A stretch of DNA of 47,414 bases, taken from the IMG/VR virus record IMGVR_UViG_3300046820_001285, positions 1 through 47,414 of that record; one strand, written 5' to 3'. Shown here one piece after another: positions 5,249-37,709 of this stretch. The stretch comes from a virus. The notes beneath the pieces were generated by a model, which saw only the letters and a program-made list of their open reading frames with translations, was not told the DNA's origin and made no database searches. Made by a program: the position numbers and the translations under genes. Each line of letters begins with the position of its first letter. The stretch's first letter is position 1.

Positions 5249-6385
5249 ATGAATCCTCTCAATCAGTTGCATCAAAGCGACGCAATCGGGCGGTACAAAC
5301 GCCTGTTGCCCCCAAATGCCGTGGTAATCAAGGCCCGTGGCGATGCCCCGATGAACGAGATCGAGCGGCTGGCGGGCAAGCTGGAGCCGCAGTTGGCGAA
5401 GGCCATCCTTGCCGGTTTGCAGAAAATGGGCGCTGATGCCGACCTCGACTTGATCGTGGCCGCTCTCCAATCCGGGGATGTGAGCAAGGTAATCGCTGCC
5501 TTGGCCATCGACCCCAAGGCGGCGTTCTCTGAGGTGTCACCGGCCATCCAAAGCGGGCTGTACGCCTCCGGGGCCGCAACAGCCGCCACCATTCGGCTCA
5601 CAGGGGCCGCGTTTGCCTTCGACCAACTCAACCCCCGGCTCATCACTTGGCTGCAAACCTACAACCTCGGGCTGATTCGCCAGATCAGCGACTCCACCAA
5701 GGAAGCAGTCCGTTCGGTGCTGGTCAGCGGCATGACGGACGGCAAGAACCCCAAGGACGTCGCCCGCCAGATCAAGGGCATCGTCGGCCTGACCGAGCGA
5801 CAGGCCAAGGCGGTGATGAATTACCGCAAGGAACTCGAAACGTTCCACCTCAAGCGCACGGCTGGCAGCTTTGGCTTGGGCCGCAAGGTCAACAGCGTCA
5901 ACGGCACGCAGGTGACCATCCTCGACGAGGACGGGCTGAACTCGGACGGCGTGAACGCACGTCGCTTGCGCGACTTTCGATACGACGGGCAACTTTCCCG
6001 AGCCGTTGAAACAGGCAAGCCGCTGTCGCCGGAGCAGATCGACAAGATGGTCGCCGCCTACCAGCGCAAGTACCTCGCCTATCGGTCGCGCACGATTGCC
6101 CGCACCGAGGCACTGCGCACCACCAACATGGGTGTCCAAGACGCATGGCGGCAGGCGATCGAAGATCAGGTCGTCCAAGAGTCGCTTGTGCGACGCCAGT
6201 GGGTGGTGGCGAAGGACGAGCGACTATGCGAGTGGTGCAGCCCAATCCCGAAAATGAACCCCAAGCGTGGCGTCAAACTCGACCAGCCTTTTGCAACACC
6301 AAAAGGCCCGGTGACACTGCCGCCAGTCCACCCCAATTGCCGCTGCACGGTTTTCATCCGTCAGTGGGAGCCTGAACAACTTTAA
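5249..6385 (+). CDS. MuF-type head morphogenesis protein
   Basis: 378 residues. The C-terminal 110 residues carry the Phage_Mu_F/SPP1 gp7 signature: SRTIARTEALRTTNMG at about 275-290, then ERLCEWCSPI and HPNCRCTVF, with the two CxxC-like pairs and the final HPNCRC. Such proteins sit in the head near the portal in a few copies and help assembly or early DNA ejection. The N-terminal half is helical. The ribosome site (GGGGTGA) is mediocre and overlaps operator-like site B. The gene is separated from the portal by the antisense island, so it needs its own promoter or readthrough. Confidence 0.88.
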   Translation: MNPLNQLHQSDAIGRYKRLLPPNAVVIKARGDAPMNEIERLAGKLEPQLAKAILAGLQKMGADADLDLIVAALQSGDVSKVIAALAIDPKAAFSEVSPAIQSGLYASGAATAATIRLTGAAFAFDQLNPRLITWLQTYNLGLIRQISDSTKEAVRSVLVSGMTDGKNPKDVARQIKGIVGLTERQAKAVMNYRKELETFHLKRTAGSFGLGRKVNSVNGTQVTILDEDGLNSDGVNARRLRDFRYDGQLSRAVETGKPLSPEQIDKMVAAYQRKYLAYRSRTIARTEALRTTNMGVQDAWRQAIEDQVVQESLVRRQWVVAKDERLCEWCSPIPKMNPKRGVKLDQPFATPKGPVTLPPVHPNCRCTVFIRQWEPEQL

Positions 6386-6395
6386 GGAGCAGACG

Positions 6396-6884
6396 ATGAC
6401 CACCCCACTCAAAACCCGACTCAACATCCTCAACGTCAAACTTGAGAAGGCTCTCGGTCGCAAAGGCCCGCGCATCCCCGGTGACGGCGATGGCGACGGC
6501 ATCCCTAACGAGGGCAAGAAGAAAGGCGGCGCAGCCCCGGCACGCGCTGCCAATCCCAAGGACGACGAGGCCGCTGCGCTTGCAAGCCGTCCCAAGATGG
6601 TCGAGGCTTACCGCAGCGCCGCAAAGCTGTCGAGCGAGAAGGGGCAAAAAGCACTGGACGTTGGCAACCCGGCGCTTGAAAGCAAGGATGCCAAGCAGGT
6701 CAAGGCGGCAATCACTGTCGTGACCGATGGCATGAATGCCCACAAGGCGTCCTACGCTGCCGCGCTGAAAATCCCCTACCCGGGCAATAGTTCTCCGTGG
6801 AAACACCACGAAGAGCGTGCCAAGGCACTGGGCGATCTGGCCTCGCGTCTGCAAGGACGATTGAAGGCTCTCACGGTCAAGTGA
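6396..6884 (+). CDS. Accessory head protein with DxDxDG-type loop
   Basis: 162 residues with an AAGGAG ribosome site. Near residue 30 it has PGDGDGDGIPNEG, resembling a calcium-binding DxDxDG loop (dockerin/thrombospondin-3 style) followed by a Lys/Ala-rich linker. The rest is helical. Placed between the MuF gene and the next head gene, so probably a minor virion or assembly protein. The loop assignment is by eye; only the spacing of Asp residues supports it. Confidence 0.65.
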   Translation: MTTPLKTRLNILNVKLEKALGRKGPRIPGDGDGDGIPNEGKKKGGAAPARAANPKDDEAAALASRPKMVEAYRSAAKLSSEKGQKALDVGNPALESKDAKQVKAAITVVTDGMNAHKASYAAALKIPYPGNSSPWKHHEERAKALGDLASRLQGRLKALTVK

Positions 6885-6889
6885 TGCCC

Positions 6890-7035
6890 GACGCCATCGC
6901 GGCGTCTAAAAGCTGGCTTTGTAGAGAGCCGACGAGAGTCGGCGAATCACCCGCGACGCAGTCCGCAAGGCTGTTTCTGTTGCAGGTGACATGGCGCGTT
7001 CCGCAAGCGCGTCAAGACGATCGCACGTGGCGATC
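6890..7035 (+). other. Hairpin-rich 211-bp spacer without a convincing gene
   Basis: The gap 6885-7095 contains three perfect 6-bp inverted repeats: GACGCC/GGCGTC (6890-6906), GCCGAC/GTCGGC (6928-6943) and GATCGC/GCGATC (7019-7035), each with a 4-5 base loop. A weak open frame crosses the gap (about 6884-7096) but has poor codon use and no ribosome site. The region may be a structured leader or processing site for the next mRNA segment; no U-tract makes termination unlikely. Confidence 0.4.
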
Positions 7036-7922: not shown

Positions 7923-10900
7923 GTGGCATCAAACTTGTCTTTTGACCTTCTGCGTGCGCGTCTTGAGATCATCAAGGCGCTCGCCAACCGCTGGCCTGCC
8001 GGTACCCAAGGCGGGAAAGGGGGCCAGTTCGCCCCAAAAGGCTCCACGGGCGGCGCAAGCGGCACCCTGCAAGCTCCGCAGCTTGGCATCGGGCCAAAAG
8101 GCTACGCCCCCGCGTTTGGCTCGTGGGGGGCCAACTCTCTCGTGCCGGTAACGCCACCCAAGGGTGCCAAGCCGCACCAGCAAATGGGCGAGGACGGCAA
8201 GCCGGTGACGATTAATTACCCGAGCCGCGCCAGCAGCCCGCAAACGTGGACGGACAAAAACAAGACGGCCACTTTCACCCCCGGCAGTGCCACACCAGAA
8301 AAGCTCAACGGCGTGAAGATGTCGTCGTGGAAAGCCCCGACTGACAAAGCCGGGTGGGCCAAGGTGGACGGCACCAACCCTGACCTTGACGCGCTGCCTT
8401 TCCAGCCGCACCCAACCAAGAAAACGGGCGCTGGCGTGATGGTCGTCGAGCCTGATGGCCGTGTCTGGCTGACGCGCCCAACAAACAGTTTCGGTGGCTA
8501 CGTCCACACCTTCCCCAAGGGCACGGCAGAGGACGGTCTTTCCTTGCAGCAAAACGCCATCAAGGAGGCGTACGAGGAGACCGGGCTGAAGGTCAAGATC
8601 GTCGGCGTCCTCGGCGATTACGAGCGCGACACATCGAAGGCCCGCTTCTTTGTTGCACGCCGCGTCGGCGGCACGCCAAAGGACATGGGTTGGGAGTCGC
8701 AGGCCATGCGTCTTGCACCCATGAAGGAGGCGCTTCAGCTTCTCAACAAGCCGCACGACAAGGACATCCTCAACGCCCTGTCCTACGAACTGAGCACCTT
8801 GCGCAAGGCCGCTCCGGCTCCGGCAAAAGGCGGCGCGTGGCAAAAGCAGGAACGCTGGCCAGAAGGCACGCCCGTTGGCGGGCAGTGGAAGGCAATGGGG
8901 GCTGACGGCCTCACCTTGCCGCCCAAGCTCGGCAGTGCAGCCAATCCCGCCTACGACAAGAAGGCCGCGACGCTGCACGCAGCAGCGCAGGCAGGCGACA
9001 TCGCAAAAGTGCAGGCGTACGTCAGCGCCAACGCCGAGAAGCTCAACAAGTTCGATCAGGTCAAAGCGTCTGGCATCACGCCCAACTCCCAGACCAAGTG
9101 GGCAGCAGGCTCTGTGCAGTACGGCAACCAGTTGATCAAGGACTACGAGTCGAAGGGCAAGGCTGTCGCAAGCGCTGACAAACTCGCTGGCCCTGCCAAG
9201 TTGTCCGCATGGAAGCAGACAGGCGCAAAGCCCGGTGGCTCCAACCCCGGGGCGATCTACACCGACGAGAACGGCGTGCGCTGGCTGGTCAAGGGCAGCA
9301 ACGCGGGCGGCGCGACCAAGCAAAGCCACAACGAAGTGCTGGCGTCCAAGCTGATGGCAGCGGCAGGCATCGGCGTGCCCGAAATGAAGCTGGTCGATCT
9401 CGAAGGCAAGCACGGCGGTGGCATTGGCGTCGCGTCCAAGATGATGGACAACCTCCAGTCGCTTGGGTTGAACACCCCCGGTCACCTCAGTGCTGCGCAA
9501 GCCGACTTCGCCGTCCACGCGTGGCTTGCCAACTACGACGCGATTGGCATGTCCTACGACAACACGAAGATCGGCGTGGATGGCAAGGCCGTCAACATCG
9601 ACCCGGGCGGTGCGCTGGAGTACCGCGCCCAAGGCAAGCTGAAAACCGACTTCACCAACTCCGTGCTCGAACTAAAGTCGATGCGCGACGCCCAAAAGAA
9701 CCCGCAGGCTGCTGCCGTGTACGGGTCAATGACCAGCTCCCAGATTGCCGAAAGTGCAAAGAAGGTCGCGGCGATCAGCGACGACTCGATCACCAAGATG
9801 GTGATGACCTACGGCGGCGGCAACGACGCAGAGAAAAAGGCGCTGGCGCTCAAACTGATCAACCGCAAGCAGGACTTGGCCCAACGGGTTCTGGAGATGC
9901 AGACCGGTGAGAAGGTAAAGGCCGAGCCAGCGCCAACGGTTGCCGCCACAGCGCCCGTTTCGGTCGCTCCTGCGGCAACCCCCAAAGCGGCAGCGCCTGT
10001 GGCCGCACAGGCCCAAATCACCCAGAAGGTGACGCAGAGCGTTTTCCACAACACAAGCGACGGCCACAACAAGTTCTGGGCCGTTTCGGTCAGCGGCAAT
10101 ACGTTGGTGACGCACTACGGGAAGATCGGTACCGCAGGTTCAACGACGACCAAGCAGTTCGGCAGCACCGGGGAGGCGTCTGTTGCGGCTGCAAAGCTGA
10201 TGGCTCAAAAAACCAAGGGCGGCTACTCCTACCAAACAAAGCAAGACGCGCCAGACCAGATTGCGTTGTTGCACGGAGCGATGGGTGCTCCTGTTTCGCA
10301 AAAGCCCGCTGCTGTTGCGCAACCGGCCCCAACCGTTTCACAAACACCGGCTTCTGTATCGGGTGGGCGCGGCGGCAATCTTCCAAGCGTGCCTACGTAC
10401 GCTGGCATTCACCAAGCGAAGTACAAGGAAGTTTCAAAAGAAATAGCCAACATGCCGGTCGACGCTCTGATCGCCACAAAGCAGATCGCTGGCGGCAACA
10501 TCGTTTTCACAACCGGTGCCGGGAAAATCACCCTCAAAAACCCGCCAAGCAGCGCGGACGGGAAAAAGTTTGACAGCTACTTCAACAGCCTTGTCGCGGC
10601 CAAGACGGCTGCGGAGCCAGCGCAGGTCGCGCCTACGACGCAGGCCAGCGTTCAGGCAACGACTGCACCCAAAAAGAAGCTCGCCGACCTGCCAGCGTTT
10701 GTCGAAAGCGTCCCCGGTGCAAAGGCCAAGTTCGAGTTCCTCGCCGACAAGGCAACGAACAGTTGGGCGTCTGGCAACCTGACCATGCTGGAGGGGATGT
10801 TCCACGCCGCAAGCAACGAGAGCACGCACAACTCTGGACTGCTAACCGCGCACATCGGTGGCCTGATGGACGACCTCAAGGCCAAGCAGACTGCAACGCT

Positions 10901-31220: not shown

Positions 31221-32384
31221 ATGGCACAAACGTACAACGACATCCCGTCAACCGACACGCTTTCGGCATCGCGGCAAAAGATTCTCGACCGAGATGAGGC
31301 AATCAAGTCCAGCTTCTCGGGCACGGCTTTCCCGACGACCAGTCTTGTCGTCGGTATGCTTTGCTACCGGACAGACCTGACAAAGCTCTACATCCTGAAG
31401 GACACAACTCCGACTTGGATTGAGGTCGTCAGCATCGCTGGCGCAAGTGGCATGGCTCCAAACGCCGACAACTTGGACGGCTACACAACCTCAACCACTG
31501 CGGTTGCGGCTCGCATCCCTGTTTACAACGCCAGCGCTCAACTGGTCGGCGACATTACCGGTAATGCTCCGACGGCAAGCAAATGGGCGACGGCACGAAC
31601 TGAAACCCTCACTGGCGATGTGACGGGGTCGACGACGGTGGATGGCTCTGCCAACTACTCCATCGCTACGACGCTTGCCAACTCTGGCGCAACCGCTGGC
31701 TCATACACAGCAGCCAACATCACCATCGATGCCAAGGGTCGCGTGACCGCAGCCTCCAGCAACACATCGCTGGTCACATCGTTCAACACCAGAACTGGCG
31801 CAGTGACGCTTTCCAGCGCCGACGTAACTGGCGCACTCGGCTTCACGCCACTGAACGCGGCTGGAGGCACTATCTCCGGTGCGTTAACCGTCTCGGGCGG
31901 CAACGTATCTGTTTCAGGAGGCAACGTGGTCATGAGCAGTGGACGCAACTTTGTTTCTGGTCGACCCGGGAACAACGCACGCGACACCGGCTTCAAAATG
32001 AGCGACGGCCAAGACCTCGGTGAGATGGACAGAAGCACGCAGTACTTCGACGACGTTGCCACAAACTGCAACGGTTACATGCCAAACGGAAACTGCGCAG
32101 GTAACACGTACTACACCCCGCCGAACGGCAACTGGTGGACGTGGGGTGTCGCGGGCGTTCCAACTTCAAATTGCGCCAACAACAGTGCTTTTGATGGAGC
32201 AGGCGGCAACACTTCCACGCTCAACGCAGTCACGGTGGGCTTTAACTACGACGCCTACTACCTTGCAGCCGACGAAATTGGTGGTCAAGAGTACCGACGC
32301 AACTACCGCAATTGCAACTGTGGGGCTTTTAATTGCCGTACCAACTGCAACTGCAACTGCGATTGCAACTGCACCTGCAAGTAA
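31221..32384 (+). CDS. Tail fibre with Asn-Cys-rich C terminus
   Basis: 387 residues. The first 250 resemble many phage fibres (DNLDGYTTSTTAVAARIPVY, GDVTGSTTVDGSANYSIATT, GALGFTPLNAAGGTISGA). Residues about 280-360 are Asn/Gly/Tyr/Trp-rich. The last 24 residues contain nine Cys, mostly separated by a single Asn: NCNCGAFNC then TNCNCNCDCNCTCK. Such alternation could bind metal, cross-link trimers or be a modification substrate. Two 2OG/Fe oxygenase genes and a SPASM radical SAM gene follow within 4 kb. Confidence 0.82.
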   Translation: MAQTYNDIPSTDTLSASRQKILDRDEAIKSSFSGTAFPTTSLVVGMLCYRTDLTKLYILKDTTPTWIEVVSIAGASGMAPNADNLDGYTTSTTAVAARIPVYNASAQLVGDITGNAPTASKWATARTETLTGDVTGSTTVDGSANYSIATTLANSGATAGSYTAANITIDAKGRVTAASSNTSLVTSFNTRTGAVTLSSADVTGALGFTPLNAAGGTISGALTVSGGNVSVSGGNVVMSSGRNFVSGRPGNNARDTGFKMSDGQDLGEMDRSTQYFDDVATNCNGYMPNGNCAGNTYYTPPNGNWWTWGVAGVPTSNCANNSAFDGAGGNTSTLNAVTVGFNYDAYYLAADEIGGQEYRRNYRNCNCGAFNCRTNCNCNCDCNCTCK

Positions 32385-32393
32385 GGACACGAC

Positions 32394-33293
32394 ATGCAAA
32401 AAATCAAAATTCCACCGCCAGAGTTTTCGACTACGTACAAGCCGCCTGCTGCTTACGTAGTTCGGCTTGAAGTAATTGAAGGCTGCTTTGTGGCACGTTA
32501 CTTTCAGGTTGTCGACCAAGTGGACGAGTCCGACAAGACAGTTCGTGACTCAATGAAGCCTATCAGCCTTCAGCCTCCTTTGCTGATGCGCAAGGTCGAA
32601 ACCCAGAGAACTCTGGTTTTGCCGTCTGCGGTAACAGACAATGCAGAAGTTCAGGACAAGCTGCTCATGGACATCGGATATCAAGTCTTTGCTCCAACAA
32701 GTGGTTCAAACTCTGTTTGTGGTTTTGGAGAGAGACAAGACTTTGCACTCTGGTGTTTGCCGTTTACTCACCAAGGAAAGGTTGGTGAGCCTTTTAACCA
32801 TTTCACAGAGGGCGAAATCGTCAAAGGTAAAGTCACAAGGATAGGAAGACTTCGTGATGCCCAGCCGATCTTTATTTTCTACGCAGACGTAGCCAATGCT
32901 CCATTGACAAGCTGGAAGCTGCATTACGTGGACTTCCCAACGTTTATTTTGGAGGACGCGACTGCCGGAAGCTGGACTGTCCAGACGCAGGCGTTTGACT
33001 ACATCTCACTGCTCCCAACATTTGAATCTTCTGCGCCTTCTTCCGTCGGTGAAAGTGGCTCGGCAAACGTCAGCATCACACTTAAACGCAATGGGACAGC
33101 AATTGCGTACAACGGTGAGATTGAAGTTGACGCAATTTCAGGCTACGTTCCAAAGCGCCGCGCAACGGTTGTGAACGGCGTCGCCTCGATCAAAGTCATG
33201 CCGCTTGGCCTCAGTGCCGGAGACAGCGTCCGCATCAAGGTCGGGACACGCAACGTCAGTGGGCTGGCCGACGTCACCATCCCGGTGGTTTGA
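32394..33293 (+). CDS. Fibre-associated protein with Ig-like C-terminal domain
   Basis: 299 residues. N-terminal 200 residues are beta-rich with no recognised family. Residues about 215-299 form an invasin/Big_1-like Ig domain (SSVGESGSANVSITLKRNG, RATVVNGVASIKVMPLG, VRIKVGTRNVSG). Likely a receptor-binding or fibre-bound surface protein. Its stop overlaps the next start (TGATG), so it is coupled to the first oxygenase gene; it may therefore also be a substrate. Confidence 0.65.
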   Translation: MQKIKIPPPEFSTTYKPPAAYVVRLEVIEGCFVARYFQVVDQVDESDKTVRDSMKPISLQPPLLMRKVETQRTLVLPSAVTDNAEVQDKLLMDIGYQVFAPTSGSNSVCGFGERQDFALWCLPFTHQGKVGEPFNHFTEGEIVKGKVTRIGRLRDAQPIFIFYADVANAPLTSWKLHYVDFPTFILEDATAGSWTVQTQAFDYISLLPTFESSAPSSVGESGSANVSITLKRNGTAIAYNGEIEVDAISGYVPKRRATVVNGVASIKVMPLGLSAGDSVRIKVGTRNVSGLADVTIPVV

Positions 33294-34144
33294 TGAGCGT
33301 CGGGTTGACGCGCTTTCAAGAGTTAAGTCGTCAACACCGGCTTGCCGAGGCTTTGCTTGATTGCAAGTCTCCGGTGGCACCCGGGGAAATAGTGAGCGTT
33401 CCGCTGCCGGTCGCTCAAGACGCTCTCGTTGAGGCCGTCCGTCTGGTGGAGAGCAAGTACCCGTTGCGTGGGTTTGCCAACGCCGAGGGCCACGAGGACT
33501 CCGCTTATCAGAATGTCTCCCTGACATTCAACCCGGCGATCCACGGCGACCCACACCACTCGACCCTCGGGACTGCTTCGATCTCGAAGAAGGACTTTTT
33601 CTACGGGAACGCACGCACTGCGTCGGCGATCGGTGGCATGCGTGACTCGTACTACGACACATACGGCTTTCGCCATCTGACGCCAGCGGGGCGCGAGGAG
33701 CTTGGCTTGCTGACCAGCCGGTTGAAGAGAAGCCTTGTGCGCTCTCGCTTGTCCGTTATCCGTGCCGGTCAGCCCGGGCCGTCCAGCTTCATGTGGGGCT
33801 GGCACAAGGACGAGCCTGTGTTCGAGAACTTGCGAGTCAACATCCACGTGACCGACTCGCCGTGCCACCGAATTCAGATCATGCGCGAGAACAGGATGCC
33901 GACCTCCCAATGGGACGATTCGCTGGTCGAGCATCACTTTAAAGCAGGATTCTGCTACTCGTGGGACACACACCTGCCGCACAGAGCTTGCGCTGTCCTG
34001 CCGTCGCGTGATGACCGCGCCGCCATCGTTCTTGGCTTGTCACCTTGGTTTGATTTTGACGTCGAGAATGACGAGTGGGCACCCAACGAATTCTTTGGGA
34101 AAAAGCACCCGCTTCAAATGCTGATTGATGGAGACGTGATATGA
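33293..34144 (+). CDS. 2-oxoglutarate/Fe(II) oxygenase, Asp/Asn beta-hydroxylase-like
   Basis: 283 residues from ATG 33293. Iron triad on a jelly-roll: H171 and D173 in WGWHKDEPVFENLRVNIHV, distal H227 or H230 in WDTHLPHRA, with R242 in DDRAAIVLGL as 2-oxoglutarate ligand. The HxD context and spacing resemble aspartyl/asparaginyl beta-hydroxylases, which hydroxylate Asp or Asn in Cys-rich repeats; some family members use His as the only other ligand. Substrate unknown; the Asn/Asp/Cys-rich fibre end is an obvious candidate. Coupled to both neighbours (1-base and 4-base overlaps). Confidence 0.82.
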   Translation: MSVGLTRFQELSRQHRLAEALLDCKSPVAPGEIVSVPLPVAQDALVEAVRLVESKYPLRGFANAEGHEDSAYQNVSLTFNPAIHGDPHHSTLGTASISKKDFFYGNARTASAIGGMRDSYYDTYGFRHLTPAGREELGLLTSRLKRSLVRSRLSVIRAGQPGPSSFMWGWHKDEPVFENLRVNIHVTDSPCHRIQIMRENRMPTSQWDDSLVEHHFKAGFCYSWDTHLPHRACAVLPSRDDRAAIVLGLSPWFDFDVENDEWAPNEFFGKKHPLQMLIDGDVI

Positions 34145-34878
34145 CACCGTCCGTGCAAAAACTAATTGATAGCCAGTGGCCTCTGAAGTTGGCCCAGAAC
34201 CTTGGTCGCTACGACGACCTTATTTTTTGCCCTCTTGACCTCCCGCCGCCTCCTGACATTGACACGGCTGCATTCGTCGATTGGATGCTGCGTGTCGGCT
34301 CTTCGAGCATGGCTCCAAAGAAGGTCTACGAAAAGCTGAACGGTCATGAATATCCGTGGGTGTGCGCTGCACCAAAGGGCGGCTCTTTCCTTGCGATGAA
34401 GGAGGCTTTCCCGCAGATCACCGACTACTTGGATCACTACCCTTTTGACGAAATTGACCACTGCGTTGTTCTGGCCCAGCGCGGCTACCAACACGTCTTC
34501 ACGCACACCGACGGGGACTACCTGCGAGGGATGCGGCTCTACCTGAAGTCAAAAAACAAAGAGGGCTTGCACTTCTTTCGCGGGCGTGAGAAGTACGACG
34601 CCTTCGACATGTACAAGACCAAGCCGGACGGCGACGTCGATCGGATCAATTGGGAAGAGTCGCATCACATGGACAAGCCGATCTACGCGGACTTTCCAGA
34701 CAATTGCCAGACCTTCATGGTCAACAGTGGCCGAGCCTGTCACGCCATCGACTCGAACACTTGCGAGTTGGGCGACCGGATTGCAATCCTGATTCGAGGC
34801 ACTTACAACGAGCAGCGGTTCAACGACCTCATCGAGCGATCGCTGGCAAAGTACGGCGACAGAGCCATCTGGTACTGA
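34141..34878 (+). CDS. Second 2-oxoglutarate/Fe(II) oxygenase
   Basis: 245 residues starting inside the end of the first oxygenase gene (ATGA). H122 and D124 in HVFTHTDGDYLRGMRLYL, distal H201 in ACHAIDSN, R213 in GDRIAILIRG: a complete HxD...H...R set. Sequence is only distantly like the first enzyme, so the pair may hydroxylate different sites or act on different substrates rather than be a recent duplication. Confidence 0.8.
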   Translation: MTPSVQKLIDSQWPLKLAQNLGRYDDLIFCPLDLPPPPDIDTAAFVDWMLRVGSSSMAPKKVYEKLNGHEYPWVCAAPKGGSFLAMKEAFPQITDYLDHYPFDEIDHCVVLAQRGYQHVFTHTDGDYLRGMRLYLKSKNKEGLHFFRGREKYDAFDMYKTKPDGDVDRINWEESHHMDKPIYADFPDNCQTFMVNSGRACHAIDSNTCELGDRIAILIRGTYNEQRFNDLIERSLAKYGDRAIWY

Positions 34879-35448
34879 TCAGAAGTCGCCATCCATCGGA
34901 GCGACGGCTGCAATGATGACGGCGTTTGCTGAGACCGGTCGACTCCCAAGGATGAAGCGGTTGAAGTCGCTGTACCTTGACAAGCTGCCAGCCGGGATTT
35001 GCTCTGCGACCGTGCGGCGGTAGTGCTCGAAGCGGCCAACTCCTTTTGCGAGGGTGCTGTCCTTCCAAGCCGTTCCGCTCGACCTGACGTGATAGGTGAG
35101 CCTGCGCTGGTCGCTTTCCATCTCAAGCAGGCAGGCGTCAAAGGTCGCCTGAAAGCCGCTCTTCCTCGGGCTGTAGATGCCACCGGTCGGTCTGTTGCAG
35201 CCCATCACGATTGTCGAGGCTGGCAGCGATGGCCAAGGCCACACGATCGTGAACGCTTGCACGAGATCGCCCGACAACGCCCCGTAAGCCACACAGCCCG
35301 ATCGAAGAAGGTTGGTGAAGGTGCCCGCGTAGGGATCGCGCCCGGGTTGCTTGACGGCCATCATCACCTTGGGTTGGCTGTCAAAGCATGCCTGAACATC
35401 GATGGCGTCAGAAGCTGTCAGGCGCTTAACAAAAAGTTGGTTGGTCAC
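34879..35448 (-). CDS. Phage accessory protein, GNAT-like shape, antisense
   Basis: 189 residues from GTG 35448 on the opposite strand, ending at the very next base after the oxygenase stop. Segments YGALSGDLVQAFTIVWPWPS and LLEMESDQRRLTYHVRSSGTAW, then RFEHYRRTVAEQIPAG, recall a phage-only family seen beside fibre and 2OG genes; the fold looks acetyltransferase-like, but the acetyl-CoA motif is not clear. Convergent with the oxygenases and divergent from the desaturase. Function unknown. Confidence 0.55.
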   Translation of the reverse strand: MTNQLFVKRLTASDAIDVQACFDSQPKVMMAVKQPGRDPYAGTFTNLLRSGCVAYGALSGDLVQAFTIVWPWPSLPASTIVMGCNRPTGGIYSPRKSGFQATFDACLLEMESDQRRLTYHVRSSGTAWKDSTLAKGVGRFEHYRRTVAEQIPAGSLSRYSDFNRFILGSRPVSANAVIIAAVAPMDGDF

Positions 35449-35524
35449 TTGAAGTATCCCGGCTCACATAAAATTCTCATTGCAATATCATGCCTGTAAC
35501 GATCAGAAACGAAAAGAGGTAGCC

Positions 35525-36241
35525 ATGTTTGAGTGGACGTCATCAAAAGCAGCCGTTTTTCAGGGGTTGGGTACATTGTCAATCCCATTCGGCCTGTTCT
35601 TTTTCGACCTTTCATGGTTGCTAGCAAGCCTGATGGTCTTCTGGTTGCTGGCGCTGATGTCCACCGTTGCACTGCATCGTCTTTTTGTCCACGCGACCTA
35701 CAAGTGCTCCCGGTTCTGGCATTGGACACTCGGCACACTTAGCTGCTTGACCATGACCTCAAGCCCGCTGCAATGGGCGGTGGCGCACTACACGCACCAC
35801 AAGCACTCAGACACCGATCAAGACCCGCACAACAACAGTCTGGCAAAGATTTTCGGTCTGGCCTATTTCACAAAGAGCAGCTACGACTTCACCCGTGCCC
35901 GTCGGCTGATGCGCGACCCGCTCCACGCGACGCTGCACAAGAACTACCTGCTTGTTCACGCCGCATGGGTGGGCCTTTGGTGGGTCTTTGCAGGGCTTCA
36001 GGGCGTTTATTTTGGCTGGATGCTGCCTGTGACCGTTTGGATGTGGGCGGGGGCCGTGCACACCCGCTTTTCGCACCGTAACGGCCAGCCGGTGAACATG
36101 CACTGGCTTTTTGGCTTCGTTTTCTTGGGAGAGCACCTCCATCGCCTGCACCACGCTCAACCGTTCCATCAGAACTACGCCACGGAGCCGGGGCAAATGG
36201 ACATTGGCTATCAAGTTATCCGGCTGATTAGCCGTCCTTGA
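35525..36241 (+). CDS. Membrane fatty-acid desaturase
   Basis: 238 residues from ATG 35525 (AAAAGAGG upstream). Three His boxes: HRLFVH at 51-56, HYTHHKH at 88-94, HLHRLHH at 204-210, all intact, binding the di-iron centre of acyl-lipid/acyl-CoA desaturases. Hydrophobic segments at about 12-45 and 130-175. It would introduce a double bond into fatty acyl chains in the host membrane. Desaturases occur in some aquatic phages. A weak hairpin near 36265-36283 follows. Placed between fibre-modifying candidates and the radical SAM gene, but with no direct link to them. Confidence 0.88.
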   Translation: MFEWTSSKAAVFQGLGTLSIPFGLFFFDLSWLLASLMVFWLLALMSTVALHRLFVHATYKCSRFWHWTLGTLSCLTMTSSPLQWAVAHYTHHKHSDTDQDPHNNSLAKIFGLAYFTKSSYDFTRARRLMRDPLHATLHKNYLLVHAAWVGLWWVFAGLQGVYFGWMLPVTVWMWAGAVHTRFSHRNGQPVNMHWLFGFVFLGEHLHRLHHAQPFHQNYATEPGQMDIGYQVIRLISRP

Positions 36242-36344
36242 CGGAAAACCACTAGGCCGACCGCCCGGGAACATCTCCCCCGGACTCTCATTTTGGTGAC
36301 AAAATCTTGCTCATCCCAACTTGCAGATGAGAAAGCGGAGTCAC

Positions 36345-37709
36345 ATGCCTGAGTTCGTAATTGAGACCCAACGGCCTGACGGCAAAGTCGGCCCGTCCTA
36401 CATTTACAAGACCGACACATCTGAGCTGCTGGACGCCATGATGCGCCAGCCGGTTGTCCCGGTTTCGACAAGCGTTCAGCCAAGACCGACCGCGTTTCGC
36501 GTCAGCAAAGACAATCCTGCTGGAAAAGTCAGCCCGAAGGTTTTGAAAATCTCACTGGGCCTGTCTTGCAACTACGAATGCGAGTACTGCTCCCAAAGGT
36601 TTGTGCCACGGGCAGACGAGACGAACCCCGGGGAGGTTGAGGGATTTGTTGCTGGCCTTGACGCATGGGTGACAAGCCCGCCCGAGCGCATTGAGTTCTG
36701 GGGCGGTGAGCCGCTGGTCTATATCAAGACCCTGCGCCCTCTGCTGGCCGCGATGAAGGCCAAGTACCCGGAGGCTGACCTCTCCATCATCACCAACGGC
36801 TCCTTGCTGACGCCGGAGATCAACGACTGGATTGTTGAGTCCGGCCTTTCGGTCGGCATGTCGCATGACGGCCCCGGGCAGCACGTTCGTGGCCCAGACC
36901 CTTTGGACGACCCCGAAAAAAAAGCAGCCATCCTTGACCTTTACAGCCGCCTGCGCCCGCTTGGCAAGATGAGCTTCAACGCCATGATGAACCGGTCAAA
37001 CACGTCCCGGTCAGCGGTGGTGCAGTTTTTCGTTGATCTGACTGGCGACCCATATGTCCCGATCGGTGAAGGTGCAATCGTTGATGCTTACGACGACGGA
37101 GGTGCTGCGCTTTCGCTGTCCCCGGAAGAAGAGATCAATTACCGACGTCTGTCTTTTGCAGAGATTCGCACGGGTCGCCCGCGCAACTTTAGCCTTGTGC
37201 CAATGAAGATCGACTCGTTCATTCAGTCGATTCAGACTCGCCGCCCGATGACTGCCGTTGGACAAAAGTGCAGCATGGATCAGCCAGACCAGATGGCTGT
37301 TGACCTCAAAGGCAACGTTCTAACCTGCCAAAACGTAAGTGCCGTGTCTGCCTCCCCAAGCGGCGAATCCCACCTGATCGGCCACGTTACCGACCTCGCC
37401 AATGTCAAGCTGACAACCGCGACGCACTGGTCAAACCGAGACGAGTGCAACGTCTGTCCGATGGTTCACATTTGCCAAGGCGCATGCATGTTCTTGTCCG
37501 GGCCACTTTGGGATCAGACCTGCAACAACGCGTTTTCAGATGCGGTGCCGTTCTTTGCCGCAGGCATTGAAATCATGACCGGCAACATCCCGGTTCGCAT
37601 CATTGGCCCACACCGGGCCGACCGCCACGACATTTGGGCGTTTAAAGACTCTGCGTCGGCCATCCGTGGCTCGCGCAAGGTCATCCCGATCAACAAGGCG
37701 GTGGCATGA
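36345..37709 (+). CDS. Radical SAM enzyme with SPASM domain
   Basis: 454 residues. Start ATG 36345 with GGAG nearby; ATG 36327 and TTG 36321 are alternatives. Radical SAM cluster C75, C79, C82 (CNYECEYC), GGEP at 120-123. C-terminal SPASM domain with Cys at 309, 328, 368, 371, 377, 381 and 393 (CNVCPMVHICQGAC core) for two more 4Fe-4S clusters. SPASM enzymes mostly modify peptides or proteins: sulfatase activation, sactionine or Cys cross-links in RiPPs, or epimerisation. No RRE or RiPP precursor is visible nearby; the Cys-rich fibre (31221-32384) and the Ig-like protein are the best protein substrates in the window. The next gene overlaps by 4 bases. Confidence 0.9.
   Translation: MPEFVIETQRPDGKVGPSYIYKTDTSELLDAMMRQPVVPVSTSVQPRPTAFRVSKDNPAGKVSPKVLKISLGLSCNYECEYCSQRFVPRADETNPGEVEGFVAGLDAWVTSPPERIEFWGGEPLVYIKTLRPLLAAMKAKYPEADLSIITNGSLLTPEINDWIVESGLSVGMSHDGPGQHVRGPDPLDDPEKKAAILDLYSRLRPLGKMSFNAMMNRSNTSRSAVVQFFVDLTGDPYVPIGEGAIVDAYDDGGAALSLSPEEEINYRRLSFAEIRTGRPRNFSLVPMKIDSFIQSIQTRRPMTAVGQKCSMDQPDQMAVDLKGNVLTCQNVSAVSASPSGESHLIGHVTDLANVKLTTATHWSNRDECNVCPMVHICQGACMFLSGPLWDQTCNNAFSDAVPFFAAGIEIMTGNIPVRIIGPHRADRHDIWAFKDSASAIRGSRKVIPINKAVA

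Follow-up and report, generated by a model that had tools for sequence, protein, structure and literature searches.

A phage radical SAM/SPASM enzyme linked to a cysteine repeat at the tail-fibre tip, a probable maturase of the phage's own fibre

What does a radical SAM enzyme modify when it is carried by a phage? The question is raised by one gene in the 47,414 nucleotide stretch of viral DNA analysed here (IMG/VR virus record IMGVR_UViG_3300046820_001285, hereafter the window), whose product is laid out as follows.

36345..37709, + strand: radical SAM/SPASM peptide-maturase-like enzyme, 454 aa, identified by profiles, Cys alignment and fold
Enzyme residues ~66-300: radical SAM core
Enzyme residues ~305-400: SPASM domain

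Translation demonstrated an open reading frame from the ATG at 36345 to the stop codon at 37707-37709. An alternative in-frame TTG at 36321 would lengthen the frame; the ATG, which is preceded by GCGGAG, was preferred because homologues start at that position in the alignment. The Pfam profile PF04055 matched the protein above its curated cut-off, the NCBIfam SPASM profile TIGR04085 scored 30.2 bits (cut-off 27) and the PHROG 1802 profile aligned to residues 46-398 with an E value of 7.4e-59, placing the enzyme in that family and bearing out the initial annotation of a phage-borne SPASM radical SAM enzyme. The cluster site C75xxxC79xxC82 and GGEP at 120-123 supply the CX3CX2C and GGE motifs of radical SAM proteins, and the SPASM set (C309-X13-G-X4-C328 ... 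C368-X2-C371-X5-C377-X3-C381 ... C393) follows the pattern CX9-15GX4C - gap - CX2CX5CX3C - gap - C. The initial annotation had listed these same motifs and judged that the enzyme looks active, and the site is indeed intact: all 10 Cys (3 radical SAM and 7 SPASM) were invariant in 100 full-length relatives. In a 53-sequence enzyme alignment 40 columns were invariant, including the GGE motif and the SPASM glycine. The invariant D312, which adjoins C309, could serve as a non-Cys cluster ligand closing the Aux I site. An AlphaFold2 model of the enzyme (pLDDT 92) contained no RRE (winged helix-turn-helix) at the N-terminus; residues 3-30 form a small beta element, and three short strands are all the strand content before residue 60. 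The gene encodes a real, intact radical SAM/SPASM protein.

The initial annotation saw no RiPP precursor near the enzyme and named the fibre C-terminus among the places to look. The second point proved apt and the first needs correction: a Cys-repeat candidate linked to the enzyme forms the fibre C-terminus and is encoded in the same gene block, 4 kb before the enzyme gene.

31221..32384, + strand: tail-fibre protein, 387 aa, the proposed substrate, with an N-terminal attachment segment common to many phages
32310..32381, + strand: Cys-repeat C-terminus NCNCGAFNCRTNCNCNCDCNCTCK, residues 364-387, the proposed modified core

The main repeat of this fibre begins at N375 (32343), and none of 20000 shuffled versions of the protein had (xC)4 within the last 16 aa. 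Among 37 IMG/VR loci, fibre-like ORFs upstream of enzyme relatives ended in similar tails (YNFNCNCNCACDCCC, TRYNCNCDCNCC, NCACNCDCNCSC). Repeats were scanned near the ORF C-terminus or directly before a Hint domain, and mostly lay within a few residues of the ORF end. In 120 distinct tails the repeat length ranged from 3 to 8, Cys was the invariant residue, the first X of the repeat was Asn in 111, and later X positions held Asn 291 times, Asp 73 times, Ala 51 times and little else. In an extended chain this alternation would put all of the repeat Cys on a single face. The ratio from synonymous/non-synonymous counts in the repeat was 0.08, a value biased by the choice of repeats for their Cys and therefore given no weight here. 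The repeat was borne by about 75 distinct, unrelated pre-repeat contexts, its carriers being fibres, short tail proteins and, in one locus (L286), tandem peptides of 72-77 aa; candidate substrate proteins were mostly 300-600 aa long. The motif [DE]x(1,2)G[GSN] upstream of the repeat occurred in 28 of the 75 contexts as compared to 9% in shuffles, which is suggestive but does not make it a general recognition motif. A tblastn search of GenBank phages with the window fibre C-terminus returned no match.

Genetic linkage was assessed from both directions. When loci were fetched by the enzyme alone, with at least 5 kb of upstream flank, an ORF with an NC tail was found on the same strand in 30/34 viral and 52/61 bacterial-genome (GTDB) enzyme loci. 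The four viral misses comprised two loci with an NC repeat and Hint of variant sequence (L025 and L028), one at a contig edge (L004) and one decayed locus in which the tail is damaged and the enzyme frameshifted (L037). The last of these was seen again as L214 on the same contig (IMGVR_UViG_2799112299_000001), where the broken repeat reads NCNCDRNCGC and joint decay with the enzyme is possible. After dereplication at 90% enzyme identity, in a set that also holds loci found via the repeat, the NC tail lay on the same strand in 92 of 104 loci and on the opposite strand in 4 of 104. The enzyme was usually downstream of the NC-tail protein. The reverse search relied on a DNA pattern that described only the repeat, took no account of the enzyme and was codon-restricted, so that it favours GC-rich codon choices. 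It recovered the enzyme in 79/119 repeat loci, while an Asn-Ser control pattern of the same design recovered it in 0/120. Where the repeat either genuinely closed an ORF of 100 codons or more or preceded Hint, and 3.3 kb was left downstream, the enzyme was present in 59/63 loci representing 27 distinct contexts. Fibres matching the N-terminal 80 residues of the window fibre were also compared by tail: the enzyme accompanied 40/40 of those with a Cys tail and sufficient room and 1/5 of those scored as untailed, the single exception (L166) having a three-Cys NC tail just below threshold (otherwise 0/4). Because the contigs are related to one another and not independent, the counts of distinct contexts outweigh the statistics. 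Enzyme relatives without a recognisable NC tail were found in six loci (L276, L278, L281, L282, L295 and L296), in contexts that do not look like phage. Apart from L276 these are distant relatives, some of them beside genes that appear ATP-grasp-like by eye. Together these data make it almost certain that the enzyme is a radical SAM/SPASM protein whose active site is intact, and that it is linked to an NC-tailed virion protein across phages of many proteobacterial hosts, with the repeat rarely found without the enzyme. Such pairs recur in hundreds of phages.

In the Achromobacter phages JWF and 2-1 the repeat runs straight into a Hint self-processing domain (NCNCDCNCNCS-CFPAGT), the first Cys of Hint ending the repeat, and repeat plus Hint was also found in about ten further loci. 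Virion proteins with an NC repeat followed by Hint (hedgehog/intein-type) were observed at L039 (6844-8295), L040 (6667-8109), L057, L243, L274 and L291-L294. The arrangement suggests that autoprocessing by Hint exposes a modified C-terminus.

Other arrangements were observed at the margins of the family. In L286 (Bradyrhizobium hipponense, 5321-5785) two tandem ORFs of 72-77 aa ending in NCACDCNCACGK and ACACDCNCNCGK resemble RiPP precursors and adjoin a desaturase-like gene and the enzyme within a contractile-tail-like prophage. More divergent phage radical SAM genes lie beside proteins with (CQ[TGK])n and NCNCDCNCNC repeats in L050, L064 and L106. Multiple radical SAM/SPASM-like proteins each were found in BFVD for Myoviridae sp. 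ctkfK18, ctYA416 and Campylobacter phages. Erwinia phage phiEaH2 (L041) carries two radical SAM genes after two small ORFs with long C-terminal (Cys-Ser/Thr-Gly)n repeats, an independent, distant phage pairing of radical SAM with Cys repeats.

6141-6524, 6467-6934, 8100-9005 and 8998-10341 of L041: radical SAM/Cys-repeat set

Between fibre and enzyme the window holds five further genes.

32394..33293, + strand: Ig-like protein with no family match, homologues in 160/240 enzyme loci
33290..34144, + strand: 2-oxoglutarate/Fe(II) oxygenase-like protein, H172xD174...H231...R243 invariant in relatives
34141..34878, + strand: second oxygenase-like protein, HTD...H...R motif read directly, subgroup-specific companion
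34879..35448, - strand: antisense accessory gene, acyltransferase-like (GNAT-like) by eye, conserved in 5/239 related loci
35480..36241, + strand: membrane fatty-acid-desaturase-like di-iron protein (PF00487), subgroup companion

Apart from the fibre, no gene accompanied the enzyme as regularly as the one for the Ig-like protein, which is possibly an accessory, chaperone or substrate-presenting protein. Families resembling 2OG-Fe(II) oxygenases occurred in 113, 45, 24 and 13 of 240 enzyme loci; Pfam 2OG profiles match two of these families, and the remaining two were assigned by motif. The AlphaFold2 model of the 33290 product (pLDDT 57) gave weak but consistent fold matches, the best of them to non-haem Fe/2OG oxygenases, and as the model is of low confidence these matches serve only to support the HxD...H...R motif. 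A Pfam search with the 34141..34878 product found no match. The second oxygenase-like, GNAT-like and desaturase-like genes were confined to a small subgroup of 5-7 loci. Desaturase-like homologues co-occurred with the enzyme in 7 loci, including the Bradyrhizobium prophage with NC peptides, and in the window this membrane protein sits within a phage tail operon.

The curated families that the enzyme resembles are nearly all peptide or protein maturases (PapB, geopeptide, quinohemoprotein, HxsB and SCIFF), the exceptions being partial matches of viperin and MoaA to the common core. A peptide or protein substrate, which the initial annotation favoured, thus agrees with the nearest relatives, although the profile search reached no curated maturase-family cut-off. 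PapB (NF047865, ranthipeptide) scored best at 50.5 bits and matched all 51 members, but its cut-off is 340 bits and the alignment was limited to residues 71-178. Among solved folds CteB, the SCIFF thioether maturase (PDB 5why/5wgg), was closest (E 1.5e-13), followed by anSMEcpe, ChlB, TigE, SuiB and SkfB; the epimerase EpeE was also matched (E 2.7e-8). CteB and the phage enzyme both combine radical SAM with SPASM, both lack the extra Aux I Cys that anSME has at the first SPASM Cys, and the CteB substrate is Cys-rich, as is the fibre tail. They differ in that CteB has an RRE and acts on a small leader-bearing peptide, whereas the phage enzyme has no RRE and its candidate substrate is a virion protein terminus; identity is 13-14%. 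SuiB and SkfB also have an RRE, unlike the phage enzyme model. AlbA has seven SPASM Cys as does the phage enzyme (PMC6231123), and seven SPASM Cys for two clusters were used as an argument for an open substrate site in AlbA; CteB has one, located on Aux I (PMC6231123). Unlike in AlbA and other sactisynthases and in PapB-type maturases, no RRE, protease or exporter was seen near the phage enzyme; the initial annotation had likewise noted no RRE and no sulfatase in the neighbourhood.

Phages JWF and 2-1 are among the closest described cases. Their PHROG 1802 radical SAM proteins share 45-50% identity with the window enzyme and their NC-repeat fibre is encoded two genes upstream, but in these phages the repeat continues into Hint, which it does not in the window, and the genes are annotated as sulfatase maturase or radical SAM with no substrate given. 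The Campylobacter phages CP220 and CPt10 carry 11-12 copies of radical SAM proteins with related folds in a viral structure search, and the published reading of Campylobacter phage radical SAM genes, the sole explicit one to turn up in the open-licence literature, is host metabolism (PMC2853527). Measured against sactipeptide and ranthipeptide systems, the linked Cys-rich partner was found, as a virion protein and not a leader-core peptide, and an RRE was not. As there is no RRE, family cut-offs were not reached and the S-C bond is only predicted, we do not file the enzyme as a sactipeptide or ranthipeptide maturase. By analogy it would work like one, with a Cys-rich partner genetically dedicated to it.

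We propose that the enzyme is dedicated to the post-translational maturation of the tail-fibre or tail-tip protein of the phage that encodes it, an explanation that we hold, as a whole, at a probability of roughly 0.8. The part of it that the genetic linkage addresses most directly, that a peptide maturase modifies the NC tail of the fibre, is very probable. The enzyme would most likely chemically harden or cross-link the tip that contacts the host. For the chemistry, thioether cross-links in the NC repeat are the leading candidate, at about even odds, since CteB is the nearest fold, the SPASM domain has seven Cys and Asn is a known acceptor; Asn accepts the Cys thioether (sactionine) in thurincin H and ruminococcin C (PMC8172795). 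In this scheme the enzyme would bind the fibre end in the infected cell ahead of assembly, and a 5'-deoxyadenosyl radical would take hydrogen from residues in or beside the repeat. The auxiliary cluster may hold the substrate thiolate, as proposed for CteB and AlbA, while Cys sulfur is joined to carbon, giving thioethers probably from Cys to Asn, Asp or Ala, within or between chains. The outcome would be a compact, stable, redox-proof fibre tip. The 2OG oxygenases, and in the window subgroup the desaturase-like enzyme, may hydroxylate the same tip, and in Hint-bearing phages self-cleavage would release the same C-terminus. More tentatively, the Asn-Cys repeat on unrelated fibre tips could be turned into a rod or needle held by thioether cross-links, some of them perhaps between chains, and further oxidised by 2OG oxygenases.

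A different radical reaction on the same tail, such as L-to-D epimerisation of alternate residues, C-C cross-linking or oxidation of Cys or Asn, is somewhat unlikely but deserves serious weight. All three reactions are performed by SPASM/twitch radical SAM enzymes, an alternating (XC)n sequence suits an epimerase working on every second residue, and the matches include EpeE and the C-C cross-linking SuiB by fold and cyclophane-forming families by sequence. However, the invariant residue of the repeat is Cys, which fits sulfur chemistry, and the fold of EpeE is a weaker match than that of CteB. That the NC repeat is instead a metal- or Fe-S-binding or disulfide-bonded tip, with the enzyme acting elsewhere in the same operon, is improbable. 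Cys-rich repeats can bind metal and phage fibre or spike tips that hold iron via His motifs exist, but the repeat and enzyme are strongly linked across unrelated fibres, and only the fibre and the Ig-like protein match that linkage in constancy. Conversion of a fibre Cys to formylglycine, implied by the deposited annotation of the JWF gene, is very improbable: anSMEcpe ranks second among the solved folds, and anSME shares the fold and SPASM layout (4k36-4k39) and modifies a Cys in a partner protein, but no sulfatase was found among the conserved neighbour families of enzyme loci read by eye, TIGR03942 scored 26 against a cut-off of 349 bits and the eighth SPASM Cys of anSME is absent. A role in nucleotide or DNA modification, or as a viperin-like antiviral nucleotide enzyme, is the least credible reading, as the 4-base overlap with the dNMP kinase gene at 37706, on which the initial annotation had based this option, is real but a kinase homologue occurs in only 3/239 related loci and the overlap is therefore not evidence of joint function, while the viperin matches (NF038283 at 49.8 bits, PADLOC pVip at 49.5 bits) span residues 74-177 only, far from the 180-bit cut-off, in a protein with a SPASM domain. 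We know of no viperin that has a SPASM domain. Nucleotide or DNA modification was rejected on the kinase not being a conserved neighbour, and the viperin and sulfatase maturase identities on curated cut-offs that were not reached.

Maturation of the fibre tip by its own dedicated enzyme would place a known enzyme class on a new kind of substrate in a new biological setting. The sequences of PHROG 1802 and of the phage genes were already on record, labelled radical SAM or sulfatase maturase, and our search of the open-licence PMC literature found no publication on phage radical SAM enzymes acting on Cys repeats of fibres. To our knowledge no RiPP-type maturation of a virus structural protein has been described earlier, and if the proposal is true this would be the first, in the form of a transferable tip module for host contact. 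A large group of phage radical SAM genes, at present listed as orphan or metabolic, would gain a candidate substrate from this pairing, and a repeat this simple could serve as a portable cross-linking tag. Phage receptor-binding tips are usually regarded as plain folded protein, at times with metal ions; if the proposal is true, many phages would carry a chemically modified host-contacting end, among them phages of Burkholderiales, Rhodobacterales, Rhodospirillales and rhizobia.
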